NCBI GenBank assembly: GCA_001797335.1
Contig: MGPE01000009.1
Coordinates: forward strand, 1 to 64,000
Origin: Deltaproteobacteria bacterium GWA2_38_16
GTDB taxonomy: Bacteria > Bdellovibrionota > JACOXK01 > 2-02-FULL-40-11
Length of the DNA stretch: 64,000 nucleotides
Direction of reading: 5' to 3'
Positions 52,502 through 64,000 of the stretch are shown here, one piece after another. The notes under the pieces were generated by a model. That model was not told the origin of the DNA. It searched no databases and saw only the letters and a program-made list of their open reading frames with translations. A program made the translations under genes and the position numbers. Within the stretch, counting starts at the first letter, position 1, and each line of letters starts with the position of its first letter.

Positions 52502-53604
52502 CATCACTTCCTGAATTTTTAAAAGAATTATTTGAATCTTGGCCTCTCCTAGGAATCTTACCGGTTTGGTTTTATAGTATTGTGGCTATTTTTGGTCTTC
52601 TTTTTCTCTTTTTATTTCCCTTTGCCGGAGTGGCTGTTTACGTTGAACGAAAAATTGCAGGAGATATTCAAGCCCGCATTGGTCCCAATGTGGTTGGCCC
52701 CTATGGAATCTTGCAGTGGATTGCCGATGCATTAAAACTTCTTCTTAAAGAAGATATTATTCCTACCAACGCTGATAAAAAACTTTTTATTCTTTCTCCC
52801 ATGCTTATTTTTATAAGTGGTGCCTGTGCCTATGCCGTTATTCCTTTTGCTGATAATGTTATTTTGGCCAATCTCAATATTGGTATCTTTTATCTCCTGG
52901 CTATTACCTCTATGGTTACTTTGGGACTTATCTTAGGAGGATGGGCATCCAATAACAAATGGTCTCTCTTGGGGGGACTTCGAGCCGCTGCCCAGGTAGT
53001 TTCTTATGAAATCCCTGTTGCTTTAAGTATTTTAACCGTTGTTTTGGTCACGGGAACTTTGGACATGGCTCAAATTGTAAAAATGCAAGGCCCTTTTTAC
53101 TGGAATATTTTTCATAACCCCTTCTTATTTATTTCAGCCTGTATCTATTATATAGCAGCTCTGGCAGAAGCTAATCGAACCCCTTTTGATATCCCAGAAG
53201 CAGATTCGGAACTGGTTTCAGGCTATAATACTGAATATAGTGGCATGCGATTTGCCATCTTTTTTCTCATTGAATACGCTGAGTGCTTTATTATTTGTGC
53301 GGTTGCAACCACTCTCTTTTTAGGAGGGTGGCATCTTCCCTTTTTTGATCTTTCCTCCTTAACCTTGGGACTTCGAATTCCTCTTCAAATCATGGTCTTT
53401 ATGACAAAATCTATTCTACTACTCCTTACGATGATGTGGATTCGTTGGACATTACCTCGGTATCGGGTGGATCAGCTGATGAAACTTTGTTGGGAAGTGT
53501 TTGTTCCCTTTTCTTTTGCCTGTCTTATTGGAACTGCCTTTTGGATGGTGCTATTTAAAGGAAAAGGAATTCCTGAACTTATTTTGGGATTATTTGTATC
53601 ATGA
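52498..53604 (+). CDS. nuoH: NADH-quinone oxidoreductase subunit H
   Basis: NuoH forms part of the quinone chamber of complex I. VYVERKIAGDIQARIGPNVVGPYGILQWIADALKLLLKED, SKWSLLGG-like NNKWSLLGGLRAAAQVVSYEI, and AEANRTPFDIPEADSELVSGYNTEYSGMRFA are the classic conserved loops. The length is 368 aa with about eight membrane segments. The usual nuoI does not follow; nuoJ does, with an ATGA overlap. Confidence 0.98.
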   Translation: MTSLPEFLKELFESWPLLGILPVWFYSIVAIFGLLFLFLFPFAGVAVYVERKIAGDIQARIGPNVVGPYGILQWIADALKLLLKEDIIPTNADKKLFILSPMLIFISGACAYAVIPFADNVILANLNIGIFYLLAITSMVTLGLILGGWASNNKWSLLGGLRAAAQVVSYEIPVALSILTVVLVTGTLDMAQIVKMQGPFYWNIFHNPFLFISACIYYIAALAEANRTPFDIPEADSELVSGYNTEYSGMRFAIFFLIEYAECFIICAVATTLFLGGWHLPFFDLSSLTLGLRIPLQIMVFMTKSILLLLTMMWIRWTLPRYRVDQLMKLCWEVFVPFSFACLIGTAFWMVLFKGKGIPELILGLFVS

Positions 53605-54095
53605 CTTCATACGATAGTTTATTTTATGTATTTGCCGCTGTGACTATCATTCCAGCCATTGTCACTGTTTTTCATCCCAATATCCTCTATGCTGCCTTGT
53701 CTTTATTTGGTTCTTTTTTTGGCGTTGCAGGAATTTATGTACTTTTAGGAGCAGATTTTATCGCTGCCACTCAAGTTTTAATTTATGTAGGGGGCATTCT
53801 AGTTCTTATTTTATTTGCCGTTATGCTTTCTAAAAATATTTATGGAATGACCTTTCAAGATGAAAAAAAGAAAAAAATACTCCCTACCCTCTTTGGTATA
53901 TTGCTCTTGGGATTTCTCATTAAACTCATTACAACGGTTCACTGGAACACAACTCTTTCAGAAGAAGGTCCCCTTCCCACGACTGCAGCTTTAGGAAATT
54001 TACTATTAACAGAGTATCTACTGCCATTTGAACTGGCTTCTGTTTTATTGTTAGCGGCTTTAATTGGAGCCATCATTTTAGCGAGGAGCAAATGA
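53601..54095 (+). CDS. nuoJ: NADH-quinone oxidoreductase subunit J
   Basis: NuoJ is a small complex I membrane subunit (164 aa, five hydrophobic segments). YAALSLFGSFFGVAGIYVLLGADFIAATQVLIYVGGILVLILFAVML is the conserved signature, including the pi-bulge region of the third helix. The C-terminus LLAALIGAIILAR is typical. It overlaps nuoH and nuoK by ATGA. Confidence 0.97.
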   Translation: MTSYDSLFYVFAAVTIIPAIVTVFHPNILYAALSLFGSFFGVAGIYVLLGADFIAATQVLIYVGGILVLILFAVMLSKNIYGMTFQDEKKKKILPTLFGILLLGFLIKLITTVHWNTTLSEEGPLPTTAALGNLLLTEYLLPFELASVLLLAALIGAIILARSK

Positions 54096-54400
54096 CCGTC
54101 GAACTACACCACTACTTAATTTTATCTTCTATCTTGTTTGTACTTGGTATTATTGGGATTATTTCTCGGAAAAATTCTATTGGAATTTTGATGGGCATTG
54201 AACTCGTGATGAATGCCTGTGGAATTAACTTTGTGGCCTTTTCAAAATACATTGCTTCTGACTTTTCAGGACAAATTTTTGCCTTATTCATTTTTGTCAT
54301 TGCCGCTGCAGAAGTGGTCGTAGCATTGGCCATTGTGCTAAGAATTTACCAAAATAAAGCAACCATCGATATTGAAGAGGTTAAAGATTTAAAATGCTAG
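54092..54400 (+). CDS. nuoK: NADH-quinone oxidoreductase subunit K
   Basis: NuoK is a three-helix complex I subunit involved in proton transfer (102 aa). LHHYLILSSILFVLGIIGI, GIELVMNACGINFVAFSKY with the conserved membrane glutamate, and FVIAAAEVVVALAIVLRIY with the second glutamate are present. It overlaps nuoL by seven bases. Confidence 0.98.
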   Translation: MTVELHHYLILSSILFVLGIIGIISRKNSIGILMGIELVMNACGINFVAFSKYIASDFSGQIFALFIFVIAAAEVVVALAIVLRIYQNKATIDIEEVKDLKC

Positions 54401-56388
54401 ATCCTTTTATTGTAAAACTTTTCCCAACTTTAGACCCTATGCTTGTTATTATTTCGGCCATTCTTTTTTCTCCTTTGGTAGGTTTTGTAATTCAATTTTT
54501 TATGGGGGAAAAGCTCTTTCGAAAAGGCGATTGGGTATCTCTAGGCGCTATTTTTATTTCTTGGGTTTTAACTCTCTTTTTATTTTCAGATTTTGTACAC
54601 TCCCAAAACGCCCATTTTAAGTGGGTCATGTCTTGGCCATGGATTGCTTTACCCAGTTTTTCTTTAGGAATGGGAATCCTTTTAGACAGCACTACTATTC
54701 TCATGCTTTTGGTCATTACAACGGTAAGCTTTCTCGTTCATCTTTATTCCACCGGATACATGCAGGGGGATCCCAGATATAGTCGTTTTTTTGCTTATCT
54801 TTCTTTCTTTTCTTTTTCGATGATTGGGCTTGTGCTTTCAGATAATCTTTTTGCTCTTTATGTTTTCTGGGAATTGGTTGGACTTTCTTCTTATCTTCTC
54901 ATTGGTTTTTGGTTTGAAAAACCTTCTGCTGCCAATGCCAGTAAAAAAGCATTTATTGTCACGCGCGTTGGGGATGTAGGAATGTTTATTGGAATTTTAA
55001 TTATCTTTTTTCAAACCAATGGACTTTTAAAATTTGAAGATATTTTTTCTTTTCTTTCCAAAAGTTCTTTTAACGGTGAATTTTTGGGTCTTTCTCTTCT
55101 AACGTTGGCGGGACTATGCATTTTTATGGGTGCTGTTGGAAAATCGGCCCAATTTCCCCTTCACATTTGGCTCCCAGATGCCATGGAAGGCCCCACGCCT
55201 GTTTCTGCTCTGATTCATGCGGCTACAATGGTGGCAGCAGGAGTTTATCTGGTTACCCGCATGTTTCCTTTTTTTACCCCAGAAGCTTTAACCTGCATTG
55301 CCTATGTAGGCGCCTTTACCGCTATTTTTTCAGCTACGATGGCCTTAACCCATAACGATATTAAAAAAGTATTGGCTTATTCGACGGTCAGTCAGCTGGG
55401 ATATATGATGATGGGCCTAGGTGTTGGGGCAACCATAGCCGGATTTTTTCATTTGGTCACACATGCTGCTTTTAAAGCATGCCTCTTTTTATGTTCAGGA
55501 AGTGTTATTCATGCACTTCACACGCAGGATTTAAGAGAAATGGGGGGACTTCGCAAAAAAATGCCCATTACATTTGTCACCATGCTCATTGCTACATTGG
55601 CCATTTCAGGCGTTCCTCTTTTTTCTGGCTTTGTTAGTAAAGACATGATTTTGGGAGGAACACTTTCTTTTGTCTCCAATCATCCAAATCACTTTTTAAT
55701 CCCCATTTTTGGATTTTCCGCTGCGGCTTTAACGGCCTTTTACATGTTTAGACTTATTTTTATGACTTTCTTTGGCACCGCTCGCGACTCCAAAAAATTT
55801 GAACATGCACATGAAAGCCCTTTTAATATGACGCTTCCTTTAATTATTTTAAGTCTTTCATCTTTTGCCATTGTATTTACGCCCCTTCATTTTTGGATTG
55901 AACAAGAAGAAATACCTGAAAACATACATCATCTGGCCACCGTTCTTTCTCTTTTTGTGGCTGGAAGTGGCATTTTACTTTCATATCTTATGTATATGAA
56001 AAAAGTTTTAAACCCTGACACTCTGGCTCAACGTTTTAAATATATCTATAACACCCTCATCCACCTTTATTGGATTGATGAACTCTATGAATGGGCTATT
56101 TTAAATAATGTCGTTCGTCTGAATAATCTTTTAGCTCATTTTGATAACCGAGTTATTGATCAAGTGATGGTGGATGGCTGGGCTCCCGTGACCATTCAAA
56201 CATCAAGAGGTTCTGGCAATTTTGATAATCGAGTTATTGATGAGCTCTTAGTCGATGGGACAGGACAAATGGTGGGAGCTTCAGGGAAACAAACGGTAAA
56301 AATTCAAACTGGGAAAGTGCAACAATATATTTTGGTAGGACTAGGGTCTGTCTGTGTATTATTAATTCTACTAACGCTTATTTTATGA
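54394..56388 (+). CDS. nuoL: NADH-quinone oxidoreductase subunit L
   Basis: NuoL is the distal antiporter-like proton-pumping subunit of complex I (664 aa). WELVGLSSYLLIGFWFEKPSAANASKKAFIVTRVGDVG, LHIWLPDAMEGPTPVSALIHAATMVAAGVYL, STVSQLGYMMMGLGVG and THAAFKACLFLCSGSVIHA are intact. Near the C-terminus, before the last membrane segment, FDNRVID recurs at residues 583 and 610 in an 81-bp period, forming an unusual partial duplication in the lateral-helix region. Confidence 0.97.
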   Translation: MLDPFIVKLFPTLDPMLVIISAILFSPLVGFVIQFFMGEKLFRKGDWVSLGAIFISWVLTLFLFSDFVHSQNAHFKWVMSWPWIALPSFSLGMGILLDSTTILMLLVITTVSFLVHLYSTGYMQGDPRYSRFFAYLSFFSFSMIGLVLSDNLFALYVFWELVGLSSYLLIGFWFEKPSAANASKKAFIVTRVGDVGMFIGILIIFFQTNGLLKFEDIFSFLSKSSFNGEFLGLSLLTLAGLCIFMGAVGKSAQFPLHIWLPDAMEGPTPVSALIHAATMVAAGVYLVTRMFPFFTPEALTCIAYVGAFTAIFSATMALTHNDIKKVLAYSTVSQLGYMMMGLGVGATIAGFFHLVTHAAFKACLFLCSGSVIHALHTQDLREMGGLRKKMPITFVTMLIATLAISGVPLFSGFVSKDMILGGTLSFVSNHPNHFLIPIFGFSAAALTAFYMFRLIFMTFFGTARDSKKFEHAHESPFNMTLPLIILSLSSFAIVFTPLHFWIEQEEIPENIHHLATVLSLFVAGSGILLSYLMYMKKVLNPDTLAQRFKYIYNTLIHLYWIDELYEWAILNNVVRLNNLLAHFDNRVIDQVMVDGWAPVTIQTSRGSGNFDNRVIDELLVDGTGQMVGASGKQTVKIQTGKVQQYILVGLGSVCVLLILLTLIL

Positions 56389-56398
56389 GGAGAGATAT

Positions 56399-57952
56399 AT
56401 GACATTGCCAAATATCATCATGGATCATTTACTGACAGGAATCGTCTTTTTACCTGTTATAGGAATATTAATTATCTTACTGCTCCCCAGCAATCGTCCT
56501 TCTCTCATCCGCTGGACATCAGCAGCATTCACGTTTCTCCCCTTATGCATCGCTGCAGAACTTTTTTTACTTTTTAATCGCAATGAAGCTGGCTTTCAAT
56601 TTGTAGAAAAATTTTCTTGGATCCCCACTTTTAATATCCATTATTATATCGGAACCGATGGTCTTTCCATCACCATGCTTTTATTGACAGCACTTCTTTC
56701 TTTCCTTTGTGTTTTTGCCTCGTGGGGTATTACTCAAGGTGTAAAAGGCTACTTTACAATGTTTCTTCTCTTAGAAGCCGGCATGATGGGTGTGTTTGTT
56801 GCCCTTGATTTTTTCCTTTTTTATATTTTTTGGGAACTCATGCTTTTGCCTATGTATTTTCTCATTGGCATTTGGGGAGGTCCTAAAAAAGAATATGCTG
56901 CTATTAAATTCTTTTTATATACCCTCTTTGGTTCTGTCTTAATGCTCGTTGTCATGTTAGCCTTTTATTTTTACTCTGATCCGCATACGTTTGATTTAGT
57001 AGAACTGGCTAGGCCTGGAATCTTAAAAATAAAAGATTTAACCATTTTTGGATTGCCTATCACCATTGCTCTTTTTAAAAAGATTTTATTTATTCTTCTT
57101 TTTATTGGCTTTGCGATTAAAGTCCCTATTTTCCCTTTTCATACATGGTTACCGCTGGCCCACGTAGAAGCTCCTACTCCGATTTCAGTAATTCTTGCCG
57201 GAGTGCTTTTAAAAATGGGTGCTTATGGACTGCTTCGAATTAGTTTTCCTATTTTACCCCAAGAAACCTATTGGTTTTCTTATGCCTTGGCCATTTTAGG
57301 ACTTATTAATATTGTTTATGGTGCTTTTTGTGCGATGGCTCAAATTACGCTTCCTCAAGAAAAAGGAGGCAATGATTGGAAAAAACTCATTGCCTATTCT
57401 TCCATTAACCACATGGGCTACGTGCTTTTAGGAATGGCCGCCTTTACCGTTGAAGGAATCAATGGGGCTGTCTTTCAAATGTTTAACCACGGCATTACTA
57501 CCGGCATGCTCTTTCTATTAGTAGGCGTCATTTACGATCGTGTTCACCATAGACGCATTGATGGATTTGGTGGGCTTCGAGTTAAAGCTCCTATTTACAC
57601 ATCGATTGTTGCTCTGGCTTTTTTTGCTTCTTTAGGACTTCCTGGCCTTTCAAGTTTTATTTCAGAAGCGTTGGTCTTTTTAGGATCTTTTAAAGTCTAT
57701 CCATCTCTCACCATTCTAGCCACGATTGGTATTCTCATTAATGCTGCTTTTTTCCTGTGGGTTTTACAAAAAATATTCTTAGGGCCTCTGAATACTACGT
57801 ATAAAGATCTCTCTGATATTAATTTTAGAGAGCTCGTTACCCTAGTTCCTTTAGCCGTATTGGTCATTTTTTTAGGGGTTTTTCCGATGCCTATTTTAGA
57901 TTTAATGAAAATAACTTTAGATAAACTTTTAACCGTTATTCAATCTGTGTAA
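56399..57952 (+). CDS. nuoM: NADH-quinone oxidoreductase subunit M
   Basis: NuoM is an antiporter-like subunit (517 aa) of the proton-pumping arm. YYIGTDGLSITMLLLTALLSF, FFLFYIFWELMLLPMYFLIGIWGG, FPFHTWLPLAHVEAPTPISVILAGVLLKMGAYGLLR and YSSINHMGYVLLGMAAF are diagnostic. GAGGAG precedes the ATG. It lies 10 bp after nuoL. Confidence 0.98.
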   Translation: MTLPNIIMDHLLTGIVFLPVIGILIILLLPSNRPSLIRWTSAAFTFLPLCIAAELFLLFNRNEAGFQFVEKFSWIPTFNIHYYIGTDGLSITMLLLTALLSFLCVFASWGITQGVKGYFTMFLLLEAGMMGVFVALDFFLFYIFWELMLLPMYFLIGIWGGPKKEYAAIKFFLYTLFGSVLMLVVMLAFYFYSDPHTFDLVELARPGILKIKDLTIFGLPITIALFKKILFILLFIGFAIKVPIFPFHTWLPLAHVEAPTPISVILAGVLLKMGAYGLLRISFPILPQETYWFSYALAILGLINIVYGAFCAMAQITLPQEKGGNDWKKLIAYSSINHMGYVLLGMAAFTVEGINGAVFQMFNHGITTGMLFLLVGVIYDRVHHRRIDGFGGLRVKAPIYTSIVALAFFASLGLPGLSSFISEALVFLGSFKVYPSLTILATIGILINAAFFLWVLQKIFLGPLNTTYKDLSDINFRELVTLVPLAVLVIFLGVFPMPILDLMKITLDKLLTVIQSV

Positions 57953-57955
57953 ATA

Positions 57956-59431
57956 ATGAGTAATTTAACCTCTAGTTTAATGCTCTATTCTAGCGAAATC
58001 ATCTTAACGTTGACGCTCTCTTTTGTCTTAATCATCCACATGATTTCTCGGAATAATTTTCTGACATTTTTAACGGCTCTGGTGGGACTTGCTGCTGCAG
58101 CTCTTGCAGTGGGAACGTTATATAGCTATGCCCCTCAATTTTATTTTTCAAATCACTTAAGCCACGATCCTTTTAGTCTCTTTTTTAAACTCTTTTTCAT
58201 TGTTGCTACTTTTTTTACGTTTCTTTTTAGCTACCGTTCCTATGAAATTGACTCCAATAGAACCGCTGAATTTTATCTTCTCACCCTTTCTGTTACCCTA
58301 GGCATGTGCACGCTGGTTTCTTCTTTAAATCTACTCACTCTTTATCTTTCCTTAGAACTCGTAAGTATTGTTTCTTATGCCCTGGCTGGATTTAGAAAAG
58401 AACACCCCGCATCTAATGAAGCAGCCATTAAATATCTTTTATATGGAGCGTTTGCATCGGGGACCATGCTTTTTGGGATGTCTTTATTATATGGACTCAC
58501 AGGCTCTTTAAATATTTATTCTATTAATGCTACCTTATCGACCGCCTTTTTAGATCCTTTGGTTTTATATTCAGTACTTTTGATGATTCTTTTTGGATTT
58601 GGATTTAAAATTTCCATGGCTCCCTTCCATATGTGGGCTCCGGATGTGTATCATGGAGCGCCCACCCCAACGGCCGCTTTTTTTACCGTAGCCCCCAAGG
58701 CTGCCGGATTTGCTGTCTTCATTCGCTTTTTTTATACCGTTTTTGCCAACATGGGAACTACTCCCAATCAGTGGGATGAACTGACTAATCTCAATTGGGC
58801 ACTTATTCTTTCTATTTTATCTGCCATTACGATGACCATTGGAAATTTAAGTGCTCTTCGGCAAAAAAATGCCAAACGAATGTTGGCGTATTCCAGTATT
58901 GCACACGCAGGATATATGCTCATGGGATTTATTGTTTTAAATAAACAAGGGCTTTCTTCCGTCTTATTTTATCTAGCTATTTATTTTTTCATGAATTTTG
59001 GTGCTTTTTTTGCCGTAGGATTAGCTTCTAACAAATTTAAAAATGAAGAAATTTCTAGTTTTAAAGGATTGGGGTGGACATCTCCCTTATTGGGAGTTTC
59101 TTTGGCCATATTTTTATTTTCTTTAACAGGCATTCCGCCTTTTGGCGGATTTATTGGGAAAGTATATTTATTTTCAGCACTGGTTCATAAAGAGTTATAT
59201 TGGCTACTCCTTATTGCTATTTTAAATACCGTCATCTCGCTTTATTACTATACGTATTTGGTCCGAGAAATGTTTTTACAAAAATCTAAGGATTCCGAAA
59301 GTGTAGCGCTTACCCCCCTTCATACAATAGCGCTACTTCTTTTGGTTATTCCAACCCTTGTCTTTGGCATTTACTGGGAACCTTTATTAGCCTTTGTCTC
59401 CCACTCACTTCAATTTATCGTCACTCCGTAA
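57956..59431 (+). CDS. nuoN: NADH-quinone oxidoreductase subunit N
   Basis: NuoN is the third antiporter-like subunit (491 aa). LYLSLELVSIVSYALAGFRKE, AIKYLLYGAFASGTMLFGMSLLYGLTGS, MAPFHMWAPDVYHGAPTPTAAFFTVAPKAAGF and YSSIAHAGYMLMGFI are characteristic. It starts three bases after nuoM ends. It is the last gene of the operon and is followed by a clear terminator. Confidence 0.98.
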   Translation: MSNLTSSLMLYSSEIILTLTLSFVLIIHMISRNNFLTFLTALVGLAAAALAVGTLYSYAPQFYFSNHLSHDPFSLFFKLFFIVATFFTFLFSYRSYEIDSNRTAEFYLLTLSVTLGMCTLVSSLNLLTLYLSLELVSIVSYALAGFRKEHPASNEAAIKYLLYGAFASGTMLFGMSLLYGLTGSLNIYSINATLSTAFLDPLVLYSVLLMILFGFGFKISMAPFHMWAPDVYHGAPTPTAAFFTVAPKAAGFAVFIRFFYTVFANMGTTPNQWDELTNLNWALILSILSAITMTIGNLSALRQKNAKRMLAYSSIAHAGYMLMGFIVLNKQGLSSVLFYLAIYFFMNFGAFFAVGLASNKFKNEEISSFKGLGWTSPLLGVSLAIFLFSLTGIPPFGGFIGKVYLFSALVHKELYWLLLIAILNTVISLYYYTYLVREMFLQKSKDSESVALTPLHTIALLLLVIPTLVFGIYWEPLLAFVSHSLQFIVTP

Positions 59432-59448
59432 AATTATATCCCCTTTAG

Positions 59449-59480
59449 GTGTTTCAAAAGCTTGAAACACTTTGTTATTT
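59449..59480 (+). terminator. Rho-independent terminator of the nuo operon
   Basis: A perfect 9-bp stem, GTGTTTCAA/TTGAAACAC, with loop AAGC (59449-59470) is followed by the T-rich run TTTGTTATTTT. It begins 17 bp after the nuoN stop. Confidence 0.8.
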
Positions 59481-59487
59481 TACCCTA

Positions 59488-59516
59488 TTGAGTTTCTGAA
59501 ACTTCCCTGTTATAGC
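59488..59516 (+). promoter_or_regulatory. Predicted promoter of the TIGR02147 regulator gene
   Basis: TTGAGT (59488-59493) and TATAGC (59511-59516) have a 17-bp spacer. The palindrome AGTTTC-T-GAAACT (59491-59503) spans the -35/spacer edge and could be an operator. The ATG at 59528 is only about five bases beyond the likely transcription start. Confidence 0.5.
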
Positions 59517-59527
59517 CTTTCCCAACC

Positions 59528-60298
59528 ATGAATGACCAAAGAGCTATACAAAGTGTACTTCAGTCGAAACTGACAGAGTTTCAATTAAAAAACACTGCCT
59601 TTTCACTTCGTGCTTTTTCAAATAGGCTTGGAATGAGCCCAGGGGCCGTTTCTCAAATTTTGAATGGAAAAAGATTTGTTTCTAAAAAGATAGCCCAAAA
59701 AATTTGTGATAAACTTCTCTTAGATCCTCAAGAAAAATCAGAGATTGTTGGGCTTTTTCCTGAACAAAAAAAAGAACTCTTAAATAATACTGCTTTAGAA
59801 CCCAATTATCTTCAACTTCAGTCAGACCAGTTTCGAGTGATTTCAGATTGGTATTATTTGGCCATTCTCTCTTTAATGAAAACCCGAGGGTTTAAACAAA
59901 GCCCACAATGGATATCTAAACGTCTTGGCATATCCCAGAAAGAAGCCAAAGAGGCCATGACCCGATTAAAAAGATTGGGGCTCATTGAGAAAGATAAAAA
60001 GGGTGGGTTAAAGCGTTCCGTTCCACGTTATCGAACCTCTGATGACACAAAAGATGTATCTGTACAAAAATCTCATTTTCAAAGCTTGGAACTCGCACAA
60101 AAGTCATTAACAACGGATCCCGTTCAAGAAAGAGATTTTACTTCAATCACCATGGCCATTAATTCTAAGAAATTGGCTGAAGCAAAAGTTTTGATTCGAA
60201 AATTTCAAGATGAATTAAGTGGTCTTTTAGAAGATTCCACCCCTGATCAAGTGTATCGATTATGTGTTCAACTTTTTCCATTAAGTCAAGGGAGGTAA
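59528..60298 (+). CDS. TIGR02147-family (DUF4423) helix-turn-helix regulator
   Basis: The 256-aa cytoplasmic protein has an N-terminal XRE-like HTH (FSLRAFSNRLGMSPGAVSQILNGKRFVSKKIAQKI, about residues 25-60). A central winged-helix-like part reads ISDWYYLAILSLMKTRGFKQSPQWISKRLGISQKEAKEAMTRLKRLGLI. This arrangement and the DWYYLAIL/RLGL(I/V) motifs are typical of TIGR02147 proteins, abundant in Fibrobacter and Bdellovibrio-like bacteria. Its last codons contain the GGGAGG ribosome-binding site of the next gene, so the two are one transcription unit. The C-terminal third (FTSITMAINSKKLAEAKVLIRKFQDEL) probably binds a signal or dimerises. Confidence 0.9.
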   Translation: MNDQRAIQSVLQSKLTEFQLKNTAFSLRAFSNRLGMSPGAVSQILNGKRFVSKKIAQKICDKLLLDPQEKSEIVGLFPEQKKELLNNTALEPNYLQLQSDQFRVISDWYYLAILSLMKTRGFKQSPQWISKRLGISQKEAKEAMTRLKRLGLIEKDKKGGLKRSVPRYRTSDDTKDVSVQKSHFQSLELAQKSLTTDPVQERDFTSITMAINSKKLAEAKVLIRKFQDELSGLLEDSTPDQVYRLCVQLFPLSQGR

Positions 60299-60390
60299 AT
60301 AATATGCGTAACTTATTCTATATCGGACTTTTAATGGCAGGGCTCATCTCACCCACTTTTGCTGGAGATAAAGTAGGAAATGGGGGAGAT
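60291..60390 (+). repeat. Conserved 100-bp 5' module, copy 1
   Basis: Covers the Shine-Dalgarno GGAGGTAAATAAT, the ATG and the first 29 codons. It is nearly identical to 61950-62049 and 63175-63274. It encodes the signal peptide MRNLFYIGLL...SPTFA and GDKVGNGG. Confidence 0.9.
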
Positions 60391-61935
60391 GTCGTGGTTT
60401 GCCGGAATACAGTAAATGAAGTTACTTCGATTGAAGCCTTAGATATTTATGAAGGGAGAGTGCGCTGGACTATCGAACTTGATTTGGGAGATGCTTCTTT
60501 GTCTCCTCTTCAAAAAGTGGAATTGGCTCTTTCAAGGTTAGGGCGAATTTCGTCTATCCGAGCAGAGAGGTATTTAGAAAAAGCCAAGCAGTTTGACGCT
60601 AACGCTCTCTTTTTAGATAATACCGAGCTTCCAGATATTTCTGATTCTAACCATTTAATTTTTCCAAAAGGCTGTAAAGTCGAACAAATTATTGTCCAAC
60701 GAACTCCTCATTTTTCAGATGATAGACGATATTTGGTCAGTAATGATCTTTGGAAACAACTAGACTCTACAAATAAAGCTGCTCTTATACTTCATGAAAT
60801 TATTTATGAAGAAGCATTAGAATTTGGGCATCAAGATTCTGTCCCTACCCGTTATTTTAATGCTCATCTCATGTCCCATCGATTTGAAACTTTTACGCCA
60901 AAAGAAATGGCTGCTTTTTTTAAGACAATTGATTTTAAGAAATTTGATTATCAAGGTTTTATTTATGCTTCTTCTAGACTTGAATGCCATCACCAATTCA
61001 TCAAAGAAGAGATGTGGCCCATTCAATTTTTTGATAATGGCATGGTTGTTAAAAGTGGCTGTATTTTAAGTGGCTCTATCGAAGTTCAAGGACAAAAAGC
61101 AAATGTGGCAGGATTTATTTCTTTTCATGATAACGGACAGCCTCATTCTTTCATGGCCAGTTCTCCCGATCCACAAAAACCACTCATGGTCAGAATTAAT
61201 GAAAAAGATTATGCCCCATATGATGGGGGAGAAATCCAGCTCTATCAAGATAGTAGTTTGAAAGCGGTCGTTTTGGCCTTAGATGATAAAAATGGATTAG
61301 TTTTTGAATCCACCAATTATTCTTTGAATACAGTCGCAGTCGATAATCCATGGGGAAAGGGGAGTCGTCCCTTAACTGTAATCCTTTATCCGAATGGGGG
61401 CATAAGTAGCCTGATAGCCATAGAACCAGATAGGCATTATCCCAAACAAATTAAAGGATGGGGAATGAGTCGAGGTCAAAGGATATATATTAGATCAAAT
61501 CGTGTTGATTTTTTTTCAGATGAAACTGTAAAAATGGCAACCATCTCTTATGAAACACCTTTAACTTTTACGATTGATGAGCATCAGTTGAAATTTGCAG
61601 GGTATGTAGAGCTCTACGAAACAGGGGAATTAAAAAGTGGTATTTTCATTGCAGAACCTCAGAAATCGTTCTGGGGAAATACGTACTTTGAAAAAATAGC
61701 GATTCCTTTTTTGGTCGGAGATCAAAAAACTAAATTTTGGCTAAAAAAAGAAACAAATGATTGGTTTGAAGGAAGATATATTCACTTTTATCCTGGATAT
61801 AAAGTTAAACAAGGAATGTTAGCGCAGTCCGCAACATTTAAAACTACGGATGGGCAAACAATCGTTGTTCAAGAAGGACAGATAGTATCTTTAGATGAAC
61901 AAGGACGATTATTACAGGGGCAAAGTGAATACTAA
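60304..61935 (+). CDS. Secreted GNGGD/HE-motif protein with C-terminal YwqK/MORN-like beta repeats
   Basis: The 543-aa protein from the ATG at 60304 (GGAGGT 7 nt upstream) has a signal peptide cut near TFA-GD (residues 18-22). It then has the GNGGDVVVC motif with C33. A second cysteine, C124 (PKGC), precedes SNDLWKQLDSTNKAALILHEIIYEEA, containing H164-E165, then GHQDSVPTRYFNAHLMS. From about residue 255, repeats of the form (L/F)Y-x-x-G-x-(L/I) recur (FHDNGQPHSF, LYPNGGISSLI, FFSDETVKMA, LYETGELKSG), resembling MORN/YwqK sheets. No biochemical function is known to me. The HE pair suggests a metal or catalytic site but HExxH is not present. Confidence 0.8.
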   Translation: MRNLFYIGLLMAGLISPTFAGDKVGNGGDVVVCRNTVNEVTSIEALDIYEGRVRWTIELDLGDASLSPLQKVELALSRLGRISSIRAERYLEKAKQFDANALFLDNTELPDISDSNHLIFPKGCKVEQIIVQRTPHFSDDRRYLVSNDLWKQLDSTNKAALILHEIIYEEALEFGHQDSVPTRYFNAHLMSHRFETFTPKEMAAFFKTIDFKKFDYQGFIYASSRLECHHQFIKEEMWPIQFFDNGMVVKSGCILSGSIEVQGQKANVAGFISFHDNGQPHSFMASSPDPQKPLMVRINEKDYAPYDGGEIQLYQDSSLKAVVLALDDKNGLVFESTNYSLNTVAVDNPWGKGSRPLTVILYPNGGISSLIAIEPDRHYPKQIKGWGMSRGQRIYIRSNRVDFFSDETVKMATISYETPLTFTIDEHQLKFAGYVELYETGELKSGIFIAEPQKSFWGNTYFEKIAIPFLVGDQKTKFWLKKETNDWFEGRYIHFYPGYKVKQGMLAQSATFKTTDGQTIVVQEGQIVSLDEQGRLLQGQSEY

Positions 61936-61949
61936 TTATTCTTTGCAAA

Positions 61950-62049
61950 GGAGGTAAATAATATGCGTAACTTATTCTATAGTGGACTTTTAATAATGAG
62001 CCTGCTCTCACCCACTTTTGCTGGAGATAAAGTAGGCAATGGGGGAGGC
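61950..62049 (+). repeat. Conserved 100-bp 5' module, copy 2
   Basis: This copy has the same Shine-Dalgarno, start and signal-peptide block as copy 1, with GNGGG in place of GNGGD. Confidence 0.9.
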
Positions 62050-63171
62050 GCTGTTGTTTGTAGAAGTTTGACTGATAACAGCGTTTTTTCTTCAGAATTA
62101 CTTGATTTATGGGAAGGTAAAGAATTCCTTGATCTTTCCATACCAGAATCATCAAAAGAGGTGAATGAACAGCATTTGTCTGCATTAGAGGTAATAAGAA
62201 ATGTAGGAAAACCAGAGAAAAAGTTGTCTGACAAAAATCTTCTTAATTCTATAAGTGATTTCACAGAAAGAATTTATTTAGATATTTTAGAGGCCACTCG
62301 TCATATCGATAATTCAACAAGCGATCTGCCTTTGGATATGGGTATCAATTTAACCAATGATATTTATGCAGTCTACTATAAGAAGACATTACGAAGTATG
62401 AGCACGCCGAACCTTCGATGTGGATTAGAGATGGTGGCATATTATAGGCCAGATGGCACTTTAGAGAGAGACACTGAAATCTATGACCATTTTACGTTAA
62501 CCAGTAAAGCCGCTTTAAAAACACACGAATCTATTTACAAGGCAGCCCGAGAATTTTCAACCTTTGCTCATGGAAAGAAAAAAGTTTTAAATGATTCAAG
62601 AGACGTTAGAGAACTTGTTGCGTATTTATATTCTCAAGAACCAGACCAGGGTAAAATTTTAAATAGTCTTCACGCTCTCTTCGGTTATCGCCCAACTGAG
62701 CAGAAATATGTTGATGTTAAACCCGATGATCATCAAGAAACAAATCTCAGGATCTCAATTCTTACATCCAAAAGTCTCGAAAAAGGGGGATTTATAGATA
62801 GTTTTATAGATCGAGAAAGTTTAAGGGGAGTCCAACTCGGTTACAATGCTTATTTATATGATGAAACACGCTCAAATCCTGTTAAAATTTCTGGGGCAAC
62901 ATTAGATTCAAAACAGAATCCAAAAGAACGCTTTTTGTTGTCTCAAAACATACAGGACTTACGTCATAAAATAATCTATATTGAGGGTTTTTTCTCACCT
63001 CGTCGTAATGCAACTGAGTACCTGAGAGAAGACTCGATAGAAATGACCGTTGCGGTAAAACTTGAATTATTGGGTAACAATGATGTCGTTTTGGCGGAGA
63101 GGTCTGGCACATTAATCTTTTCAACAAATACGCTTGAACCCTTTGTCATGCTTTTCTGTGAACTATATTGA
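61963..63171 (+). CDS. Secreted GNGGD/HE-motif paralogue
   Basis: The 402-aa protein has the same leader (MRNLFYSGLL...SPTFAGDKVGNGGGAVVC, C33). C153 (NLRCGLEMVAYYRPDG) precedes HFTLTSKAALKTHESIYKAAREF with H188-E189, then NDSRDVRELVAYLYSQEP. Compared with its upstream paralogue, the N-terminal framework and the KAA-L-x-x-HE-x-I-Y core are shared, while the C-terminal part (about 230-402) is different and predicted beta-rich. Predicted periplasmic or extracellular. Function unknown. GGAGGT lies 7 nt before the ATG. Confidence 0.8.
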   Translation: MRNLFYSGLLIMSLLSPTFAGDKVGNGGGAVVCRSLTDNSVFSSELLDLWEGKEFLDLSIPESSKEVNEQHLSALEVIRNVGKPEKKLSDKNLLNSISDFTERIYLDILEATRHIDNSTSDLPLDMGINLTNDIYAVYYKKTLRSMSTPNLRCGLEMVAYYRPDGTLERDTEIYDHFTLTSKAALKTHESIYKAAREFSTFAHGKKKVLNDSRDVRELVAYLYSQEPDQGKILNSLHALFGYRPTEQKYVDVKPDDHQETNLRISILTSKSLEKGGFIDSFIDRESLRGVQLGYNAYLYDETRSNPVKISGATLDSKQNPKERFLLSQNIQDLRHKIIYIEGFFSPRRNATEYLREDSIEMTVAVKLELLGNNDVVLAERSGTLIFSTNTLEPFVMLFCELY

Positions 63172-63174
63172 AGA

Positions 63175-63274
63175 GGAGGTAAATAATATGCGTAACTTAT
63201 TTTATATAGGACTTTTAATAATGGGCCTCATCTCACCCACCTTTGCGGGAGATAAAGTGGGAAATGGGGGGGAT
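63175..63274 (+). repeat. Conserved 100-bp 5' module, copy 3
   Basis: This is the third copy of the Shine-Dalgarno plus signal-peptide block. It ends in GNGGDG, after which the sequence diverges at once from the other two. Confidence 0.9.
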
Positions 63275-64000
63275 GGCACGGCTTTGGAATTTAAGCATAT
63301 AGCAATGGATTTGTATGATTACTTTAAAACTCTCCCTCCAGCTATGTTACCTGAAAAAATGCAAGATATAGACCTTCTTGTATTTAAAAACTTTATAGAT
63401 AATCTCAATGTTACTTCCAAGGCGCAATTTGATCCACCCCATGAAAATTTCACTGCTATGAATTTTAGTTACCCTCATGAAACAGATTTGGAAGGAGGAC
63501 AAATTATTATCAATAGAAGTCGGTGGAGTGAAGAAACTCAAAAGAAAGCTGTTGTTTTGCATGAATTATTGGGATTGATGGGGAAAGATAGAAAATACGA
63601 CGTGTCTCATGAGTTTGTAAATACCATCGTAGATAATGAAGCAGCCTTTTCTCAGATCTATGATCTTATACAGGGGATAAGATCAGCACACGGATTTTTT
63701 GAAACGGCCATGAGTTATTTTCAAAGTGTGCATAGCGGTAAAGCATCGGAACTTACTCATCAATTGATGTGGACACATCCAAACAAAACGGCCATGAGTG
63801 AAATGCCAAAGAGAGAGGCCTTAGAAATGATCGAGCTATTTCAAGGTGGAGCTAGAGAGTATAAAACTTTTTATGAACAGTCATTTCAATTACAACATAG
63901 TATTTTGAGTTTGGCTTTAACCCTAATAGATTTAGAGGTATATCCAGAAATTCAAGCTGCTAAAAAAGCGTTGATTTGGGATGAAACTGTTGTTCCTGAC
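63188..64000 (+). CDS. Secreted GNGGD/HE-motif paralogue, truncated by window edge
   Basis: The 271 visible codons remain open at base 64000. The leader is MRNLFYIGLLIMGLISPTFAGDKVGNGGDG, but the VVC cysteine block of the two upstream paralogues is missing. GGQIIINRSRWSEETQKKAVVLHELLGLMGKD carries H125-E126, the counterpart of the HE pair in the other two, then KYDVSHEFVNTIVDN. The remainder is helical and lacks the paralogues' C-terminal parts in the visible region. Predicted periplasmic or secreted. Function unknown. Confidence 0.78.
   Translation, partial: MRNLFYIGLLIMGLISPTFAGDKVGNGGDGTALEFKHIAMDLYDYFKTLPPAMLPEKMQDIDLLVFKNFIDNLNVTSKAQFDPPHENFTAMNFSYPHETDLEGGQIIINRSRWSEETQKKAVVLHELLGLMGKDRKYDVSHEFVNTIVDNEAAFSQIYDLIQGIRSAHGFFETAMSYFQSVHSGKASELTHQLMWTHPNKTAMSEMPKREALEMIELFQGGAREYKTFYEQSFQLQHSILSLALTLIDLEVYPEIQAAKKALIWDETVVPD

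Follow-up and report, generated by a model that had tools for sequence, protein, structure and literature searches.

The window analysed here is a 64,000-nucleotide stretch of Deltaproteobacteria bacterium GWA2_38_16 (GCA_001797335.1, contig MGPE01000009.1, positions 1 to 64,000 of the forward strand), and at its end a TIGR02147-type regulator gene is followed by a tandem array of secreted proteins that carry a short GNGGD tag at the N-terminus. An initial annotation of this DNA had placed the regulator and at least three secreted genes in one unit; the unit proved larger, with four secreted genes on the contig, of which genes 1 and 2 lie whole within the window, gene 3 is interrupted by its end and gene 4 falls outside (Table 1). 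The family assignment of the regulator held as well: judged by profile searches, it is a clear member of the TIGR02147 (Fsuc_second)/DUF4423 family, scoring 128.4 bits against a curated cut-off of 50 for NCBIfam TIGR02147 and 173 against a cut-off of 30 for Pfam DUF4423 (PF14394, 5.7e-51), with an XRE-like helix-turn-helix (HTH) at about residues 1-75, a winged helix at about 97-170 and a C-terminal alpha-beta-alpha-beta domain at 175-253. Its final two sense codons, GGG AGG, form the ribosome-binding site of gene 1, as had been predicted, and the gene 1 ATG lies 5 nt past the regulator stop (at locus L012 the regulator-partner gap is +5, an apparent value of -37 being an artefact of an alternative start).

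All four secreted genes begin with the same 101-nt leader, which comprises the ribosome-binding site, the signal peptide and GDKVGNGG and is present as DNA copies that are 87-98% identical, far above chance, bearing out the common signal peptide and GNGGD/G motif of the initial annotation. Genes 1 and 4 share 90-100% DNA identity over their first 90 nt and are unrelated past the motif. Another regulator locus, L057, carries a paralogue of the gene 1 body (63% identical as protein); past the start of the motif the two genes agree in about 77-90% of their DNA, but their signal peptides are unrelated. Because the identity of the leader stops at the motif and the gene 1 body carries a different leader elsewhere, leader and body appear to be separate modules joined at the tag. 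A leader shared by four cargo genes, together with exchange at the tag, fits a cargo that has to match its local regulator.

Table 1. Features of the regulator operon and its upstream region
Feature	Position	Strand	Description
Inverted repeat GTGTTTCAA-aagc-TTGAAACAC	59449..59470	.	Perfect, 22 nt; second candidate operator or terminator of upstream nuo operon
Candidate regulator promoter	59488..59516	+	TTGAGT, 17 nt, TATAGC; read from sequence
Inverted repeat AGTTTC-t-GAAACT (AGTTTCtGAAACT)	59491..59503	.	Covers putative -35 box; candidate operator
TIGR02147/DUF4423 regulator	59528..60298	+	256 aa; family profiles, AlphaFold model, fold search
Leader cassette copy 1	60291..60391	+	DNA repeat family; ribosome-binding site, signal peptide, GDKVGNGGD
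Secreted gene 1	60304..61935	+	543 aa; signal peptide, GDKVGNGGD tag, GNGGD-HE domain at about residues 20-200, then repeats
Leader cassette copy 2	61950..62050	+	87% identical to copy 1
Secreted gene 2	61963..63171	+	402 aa; shared leader, diverged GNGGD-HE domain
Leader cassette copy 3	63175..63275	+	89% identical
Secreted gene 3	63188..64000 in window	+	Complete on contig at 63188-64618, 476 aa
Leader cassette copy 4	Start of gene 4		98% identical
Secreted gene 4	Contig 64620-65912		430 aa; HESLH at 150; beyond window end

The initial annotation had read the array as secreted paralogues aligned on a core K-A-(A/V)-(L/V)-x-x-HE. This stands for genes 1 and 2, in both of which a 4-sequence search finds the HE domain (2.3e-77 and 2.5e-18); by that match they are real paralogues, gene 2 being the diverged member. 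It does not stand for genes 3 and 4, which match the domain over the leader only, and the core is unproven in gene 3. The cysteine pair claimed for two of the genes was found in both (C33/C124 in gene 1, C33/C153 in gene 2). GNGG lies at residue 25 in genes 1, 2 and 3, and the HE pair at 164 in gene 1, at 188 in gene 2 and, among others, at 125 in gene 3, which has no cysteines. A domain profile of 31 sequences across the phylum shows a near-invariant GNGG, Cys, and Asp and Glu (LLDxYE), an invariant Asp and Cys, a Gln, and a near-invariant Cys pair, and His-Glu is kept in 30 of the 31, in line with the predicted conservation of HE across homologues. These residues, HESLH in gene 4 and a single weak Pfam match that aligns the HE region with a phage metallopeptidase (E 0.08) speak for the earlier reading, in which GNGGD and HE define a system of secreted hydrolases that are zincin-like and possibly degenerate. 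We nevertheless regard that reading as highly improbable, with HExxH occurring in gene 4 alone (gene 1 reads HEIIY and gene 2 HESIY), genes 3 and 4 matching the domain only across the leader, most partners elsewhere lacking it, and no Pfam family or PDB relative of the domain found in sequence searches of both databases. The HE pair is probably important within one partner family and, on these alignments, does not define the array; as a common theme it gave way to the N-terminal tag. A search for viral relatives of the HE domain found none, the sole pattern match being a chance reading frame on a phage tail-like contig. Other tandem GNGGD-HE arrays behind a single regulator were observed at loci L202 (G128 contig 50), L201 (G122 contig 24) and L203 (G128 contig 36), both leaders being nearly identical in L202 and the leaders dissimilar in L201 and L203.

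Coupling between regulator and tagged partner recurs throughout the source genome, which encodes 14 TIGR02147 regulators. Behind 13 of these, the next gene starts no more than a few bases away, usually overlapping the regulator by 4 nt (ATGA), and encodes a secreted protein whose mature N-terminus is rich in glycine (GNGGD or variants such as GSGGS, GGGGGVDE, VEGGGDY, VTGGGDY and IGNGK). A genome-wide DNA pattern search found no further secreted proteins with GNGG near the N-terminus, all those found being linked to a regulator. At L008, L009 and L010 of the same genome, the partners with the second dialect, VEGGGDY/VTGGGDY, are similar to one another. Across the phylum, the gene 1 domain profile has relatives in 63 of 144 genomes, and 28 of the 30 loci fetched have a TIGR02147 regulator upstream on the same strand, the two others being one tandem array and one contig end; the survey thereby confirmed that these regulators are enriched beside GNGGD proteins.

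The module reaches Fibrobacterota, Myxococcota, Desulfobacterota and others. A regulator scan of genome contigs yielded 80 loci, among them loci from Bdellovibrionales, Fibrobacter, Myxococcales, Desulfobacteraceae, Nitrospira and Raymondbacteria; at most of the 80 a lipoprotein or secreted protein directly follows the regulator and carries a tag just past its signal peptide (GTDVGNP, GTETGNP, AGIEIGNPE, GGVDVGN, GFEIGNG). The expression G-x-x-[VTILFSQ]-G-N matched the partners of 50 of 65 non-redundant regulators versus 2 of 343 other signal-peptide-like open reading frames (ORFs) at the same loci (Fisher 5e-48), a test that was partly non-blind in that the expression was written after the test sequences were visible, the motif itself having first been met in a separate set. 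In a full survey of six genomes, coupled exported partners were found for 49/61 high-scoring, 10/17 intermediate and 0/12 low-scoring regulators, and a broad GG/GN tag in 47/59 partners versus 39/469 controls (4e-32). The low-scoring branch seems to be a partnerless subfamily. Regulator and partner overlap by 4 nt in 57 of 111 pairs.

On the basis of these alignments, GNGGD is one dialect of an N-terminal tag, and it is the tag that unites the partners. Its consensus over 88 strict cases is [G/A]-G-[TVIF]-[ED]-[VTI]-G-N-[GPA], and its site is the mature N-terminus, directly past the signal peptide or lipobox, in lipoproteins and signal-peptidase-I-type proteins alike. The tag is constant and the bodies behind it are mostly unrelated in sequence (a looser body-clustering threshold, E<1, merged all families into one chain and was discarded). 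Third codon positions within the tag vary like those of other Gly and Asn codons, which indicates that selection acts on the peptide and rules out a nucleotide-level role as an operator or RNA site. The smallest partners consist of little beyond a signal peptide and tags, such as a 71-aa protein with two copies of GTEVGNGG and a 67-aa protein with two copies, and others carry three tags (L183) or four (L109). With short bodies or two to four tags, the partners at L106/L151, L105/L126, L109 and L183 resemble multi-copy peptide precursors.

We then compared tags with regulators across pairs of loci whose partner bodies are not detectably homologous, setting the variable tag positions against regulator similarity. 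Tag similarity rises with regulator similarity (rho 0.19, versus a permutation sd of 0.04 and maximum of 0.13), and in the same pairs no such covariation was seen for the 14 residues before the tag, the protein N-terminus or the 8 residues after the tag. Within genomes, a comparison that holds any sorting machinery constant, the tag follows the C-terminal domain of the regulator (rho 0.22, p=0.016) more closely than the N-terminal part (p=0.12); in a partial test on a larger set the C-terminal domain gave 0.141 versus a permutation maximum of 0.136. Small as these effects are, they favour the regulator as the reader of the tag rather than a role as a general sorting signal. A sorting or processing tag, read by an envelope localisation or maturation factor while the regulator merely controls a class of envelope proteins, would account for its place at the start of the mature protein, in lipoproteins and signal-peptidase-I-type proteins alike, and for its presence on large, unrelated proteins. 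We consider it unlikely, given that hardly any other exported ORF nearby carries the tag, that every protein with an N-terminal GNGG found in the source genome is linked to a regulator, that several dialects coexist side by side within one genome, that within genomes the tag tracks the C-terminal domain, and that the two-tag peptides of about 70 aa have nothing to sort. Descent alone, with an ancestral operon of regulator and secreted protein duplicated many times and the tag a structural remnant that makes no contact with the regulator, would explain why the coupling is conserved throughout, and co-inheritance by itself gives some covariation. That explanation strikes us as very unlikely, however, as seven residues were kept while the bodies diverged beyond recognition, and the covariation is limited to the tag and absent from adjacent residues that are equally co-inherited.

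In an AlphaFold model of the regulator built with 44 relatives (pLDDT 86), the HTH and the winged helix are followed by a C-terminal alpha-beta-alpha-beta piece. Its strands are placed with confidence but do not pair within the monomer, which would suit an intertwined dimer. The best VIA-align match of this model is the HetR hood (Z 8.6, rmsd 2.1 A over 77 residues, model residues 175-253 versus 222-298), and a second HetR entry appears in the same comparison at Z 7.6; solved sequence relatives of the regulator gave HTH-level matches only. The HetR hood is an entwined alpha-beta-alpha-beta dimer in which the PatS hexapeptide (PatS6) is bound along strand 3 together with Asp residues that the other subunit contributes from its next helix (PMC4649674). 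R202 and K220 are strongly conserved in the DUF4423 domain, and, if the near-gapless range is read across, the modelled residues would sit at about these elements of the HetR peptide site, strand 3 and the next helix. R202 is present in 110 of the 111 regulators with a tagged partner versus 8 of 12 partnerless ones, several of these orphans being mutual orthologues, and it could face the acidic residue of the tag. A basic site for a Glu/Asp tag would mirror the acidic site of HetR for Arg-containing peptides. We treat the modelled resemblance to the HetR hood as a lead and not as membership.

The regulator promoter may itself be a target. The -10 box of the candidate promoter lies 11 nt from the ATG, so the regulator mRNA would be nearly leaderless; we grade the promoter as weak because a consensus promoter scan did not list it. 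The overlap of AGTTTCtGAAACT with the putative -35 box is consistent with autoregulation, and upstream of these regulators inverted repeats occur more often than expected (47 of 110 versus 19.7 in shuffles, sd 4.8). The larger palindrome, GTGTTTCAA-aagc-TTGAAACAC, has a terminator-like score in a terminator scan and may be the nuo terminator instead of an operator. At L005-L011, strong TTGAC..-N17-TATAAT-like promoters end about 5-12 nt before the regulator ATG, a spacing that suggests leaderless mRNAs.

Taken with the HetR analogy, these data lead us to put at close to an even chance an autoregulator that senses the N-terminal tag of its exported partner and works like HetR-PatX. The TIGR02147 (DUF4423) factor would be autoregulated and translationally coupled to a tag-bearing exported protein, and the tag, which we infer to be the ligand, would be released or displayed after export. 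The tag peptide, or the unexported precursor, would bind the C-terminal alpha-beta-alpha-beta domain of the cytosolic regulator and alter its hold on palindromes overlapping its own promoter, and the cell could thereby sense the amount, export or extracellular fate of its cargo, or the cargo of its neighbours. In the operon described here, one regulator would serve four cargo genes by way of the leader that all of them carry.

In the system of filamentous cyanobacteria, PatX is exported and cut by PatP in the periplasm, and the HRGTGR peptide binds HetR and blocks its binding to DNA (PMC12756182). The two systems share a cytosolic DNA-binding regulator and a Sec-exported precursor with a short Gly-containing motif (PatX, PMC12756182), and adjacency (patX always accompanies hetR, PMC7761841; here the exported tagged partner adjoins its regulator). 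The C-terminal alpha-beta-alpha-beta domain of HetR holds its peptide site (PMC4649674), and it was the best structural match of the C-terminal domain in one of the two models here. The systems differ in their HTH domains, XRE-like plus winged helix in the TIGR02147 regulator; in the motif, which is acidic here (G-x-[ED]-[VTI]-G-N) in place of the basic RG[ST]GR of PatX; in that the tag usually heads a large and diverse protein; and in that a genome may hold up to 14 or more TIGR02147 regulators, with peptide binding here a proposal. RRNPP receptors (Rgg, PlcR, PrgX, ComR) offer a further parallel, as regulators with an N-terminal XRE-type HTH whose exported propeptide gene lies immediately downstream. 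The regulators described here lack a TPR-type ligand domain, Pfam scans listing HTH, winged-helix and DUF4423 only, and they differ from RRNPP also in their Gram-negative hosts, in their mostly full-size exported partners and in a motif that follows the signal peptide in place of a C-terminal one.

Several results weigh against a HetR-like peptide sensor. We identified no importer or processing peptidase, and partners reach 700 aa or more, which is odd for a mere pheromone precursor. About one-fifth of coupled partners carry no obvious tag, the 12 low-scoring regulators have no partner at all, and signal peptides were judged by hydropathy and not by SignalP. The covariation effects are small, with phylogeny controlled via permutation and flank comparison only. 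In the comparison of a second AlphaFold model (Fibrobacter intestinalis), HTH matches fill the list and HetR is not among them; HetR_C (PF18460) had no above-cut-off match in 20 genomes and is not among the families listed for the 44 regulator members, and its hhalign score fell below that of shuffles. The importer would be unnecessary if the regulator bound the tag while the precursor was still in the cytosol, nascent or not yet exported, and thereby monitored secretion flux with no released peptide. The 4-nt overlap would also place the N-terminus of the partner beside newly made regulator, and the leader common to all array genes agrees with such pre-export sensing. We judge it improbable all the same, since the tag lies past the signal peptide and not inside it and is repeated downstream in small partners, an arrangement better suited to a released peptide. 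Extended to the whole family, sensing of the exported tag would make TIGR02147 a large cross-phylum family of intracellular peptide receptors in Gram-negatives, each regulator with its own tag dialect on its own exported cargo, with ten to twenty-five parallel private channels per genome that a cargo joins by acquiring a leader at the tag. We offer this wider proposal as possible but rather doubtful.

To our knowledge, no function has been assigned to the TIGR02147/DUF4423 family. A full-text search of open-licence literature for TIGR02147, PF14394 and GNGGD-type and GTDVGNP-type strings returned no paper, which agrees with the earlier statement that the secreted partners have no described role, and the link between TIGR02147 and secreted partners is apparently undescribed. 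DUF4423 occurs in the proteome table of one paper, where Bd3700 is up-regulated late in Bdellovibrio predation and no partner is mentioned (PMC12546842). A regulator beside the precursor of an exported ligand is a known kind of arrangement, as in HetR-PatX and RRNPP; what appears to be new is the family of receptors, the tag and the way it is displayed on large and diverse cargo, and the multiplicity per genome. The proposal offers a role that can be tested for an uncharacterised family of regulators, expanded in predatory and cellulose-degrading bacteria, as well as for numerous hypothetical secreted proteins. Were the tag the ligand, signalling of the HetR-PatX kind would extend well beyond cyanobacteria, and the cue of each regulator could be read directly from the neighbouring gene.

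At one Fibrobacter locus (L147, F. intestinalis ATCC 43854) the partner is a tagged lipoprotein with a C-terminal CBM_4_9 carbohydrate-binding domain (7.4e-12), so that in Fibrobacter the module may report on a cellulose-binding surface protein. In the array itself, the C-terminal half of gene 1 (window 60900-61935) contains LYxxGxLKxA-type repeats that look MORN/YwqK-like by eye. Upstream, NADH dehydrogenase genes (nuoJ, K, L, M, N-like) at window positions 53601-59431 form an ordinary nuo cluster that ends about 100 nt before the regulator.

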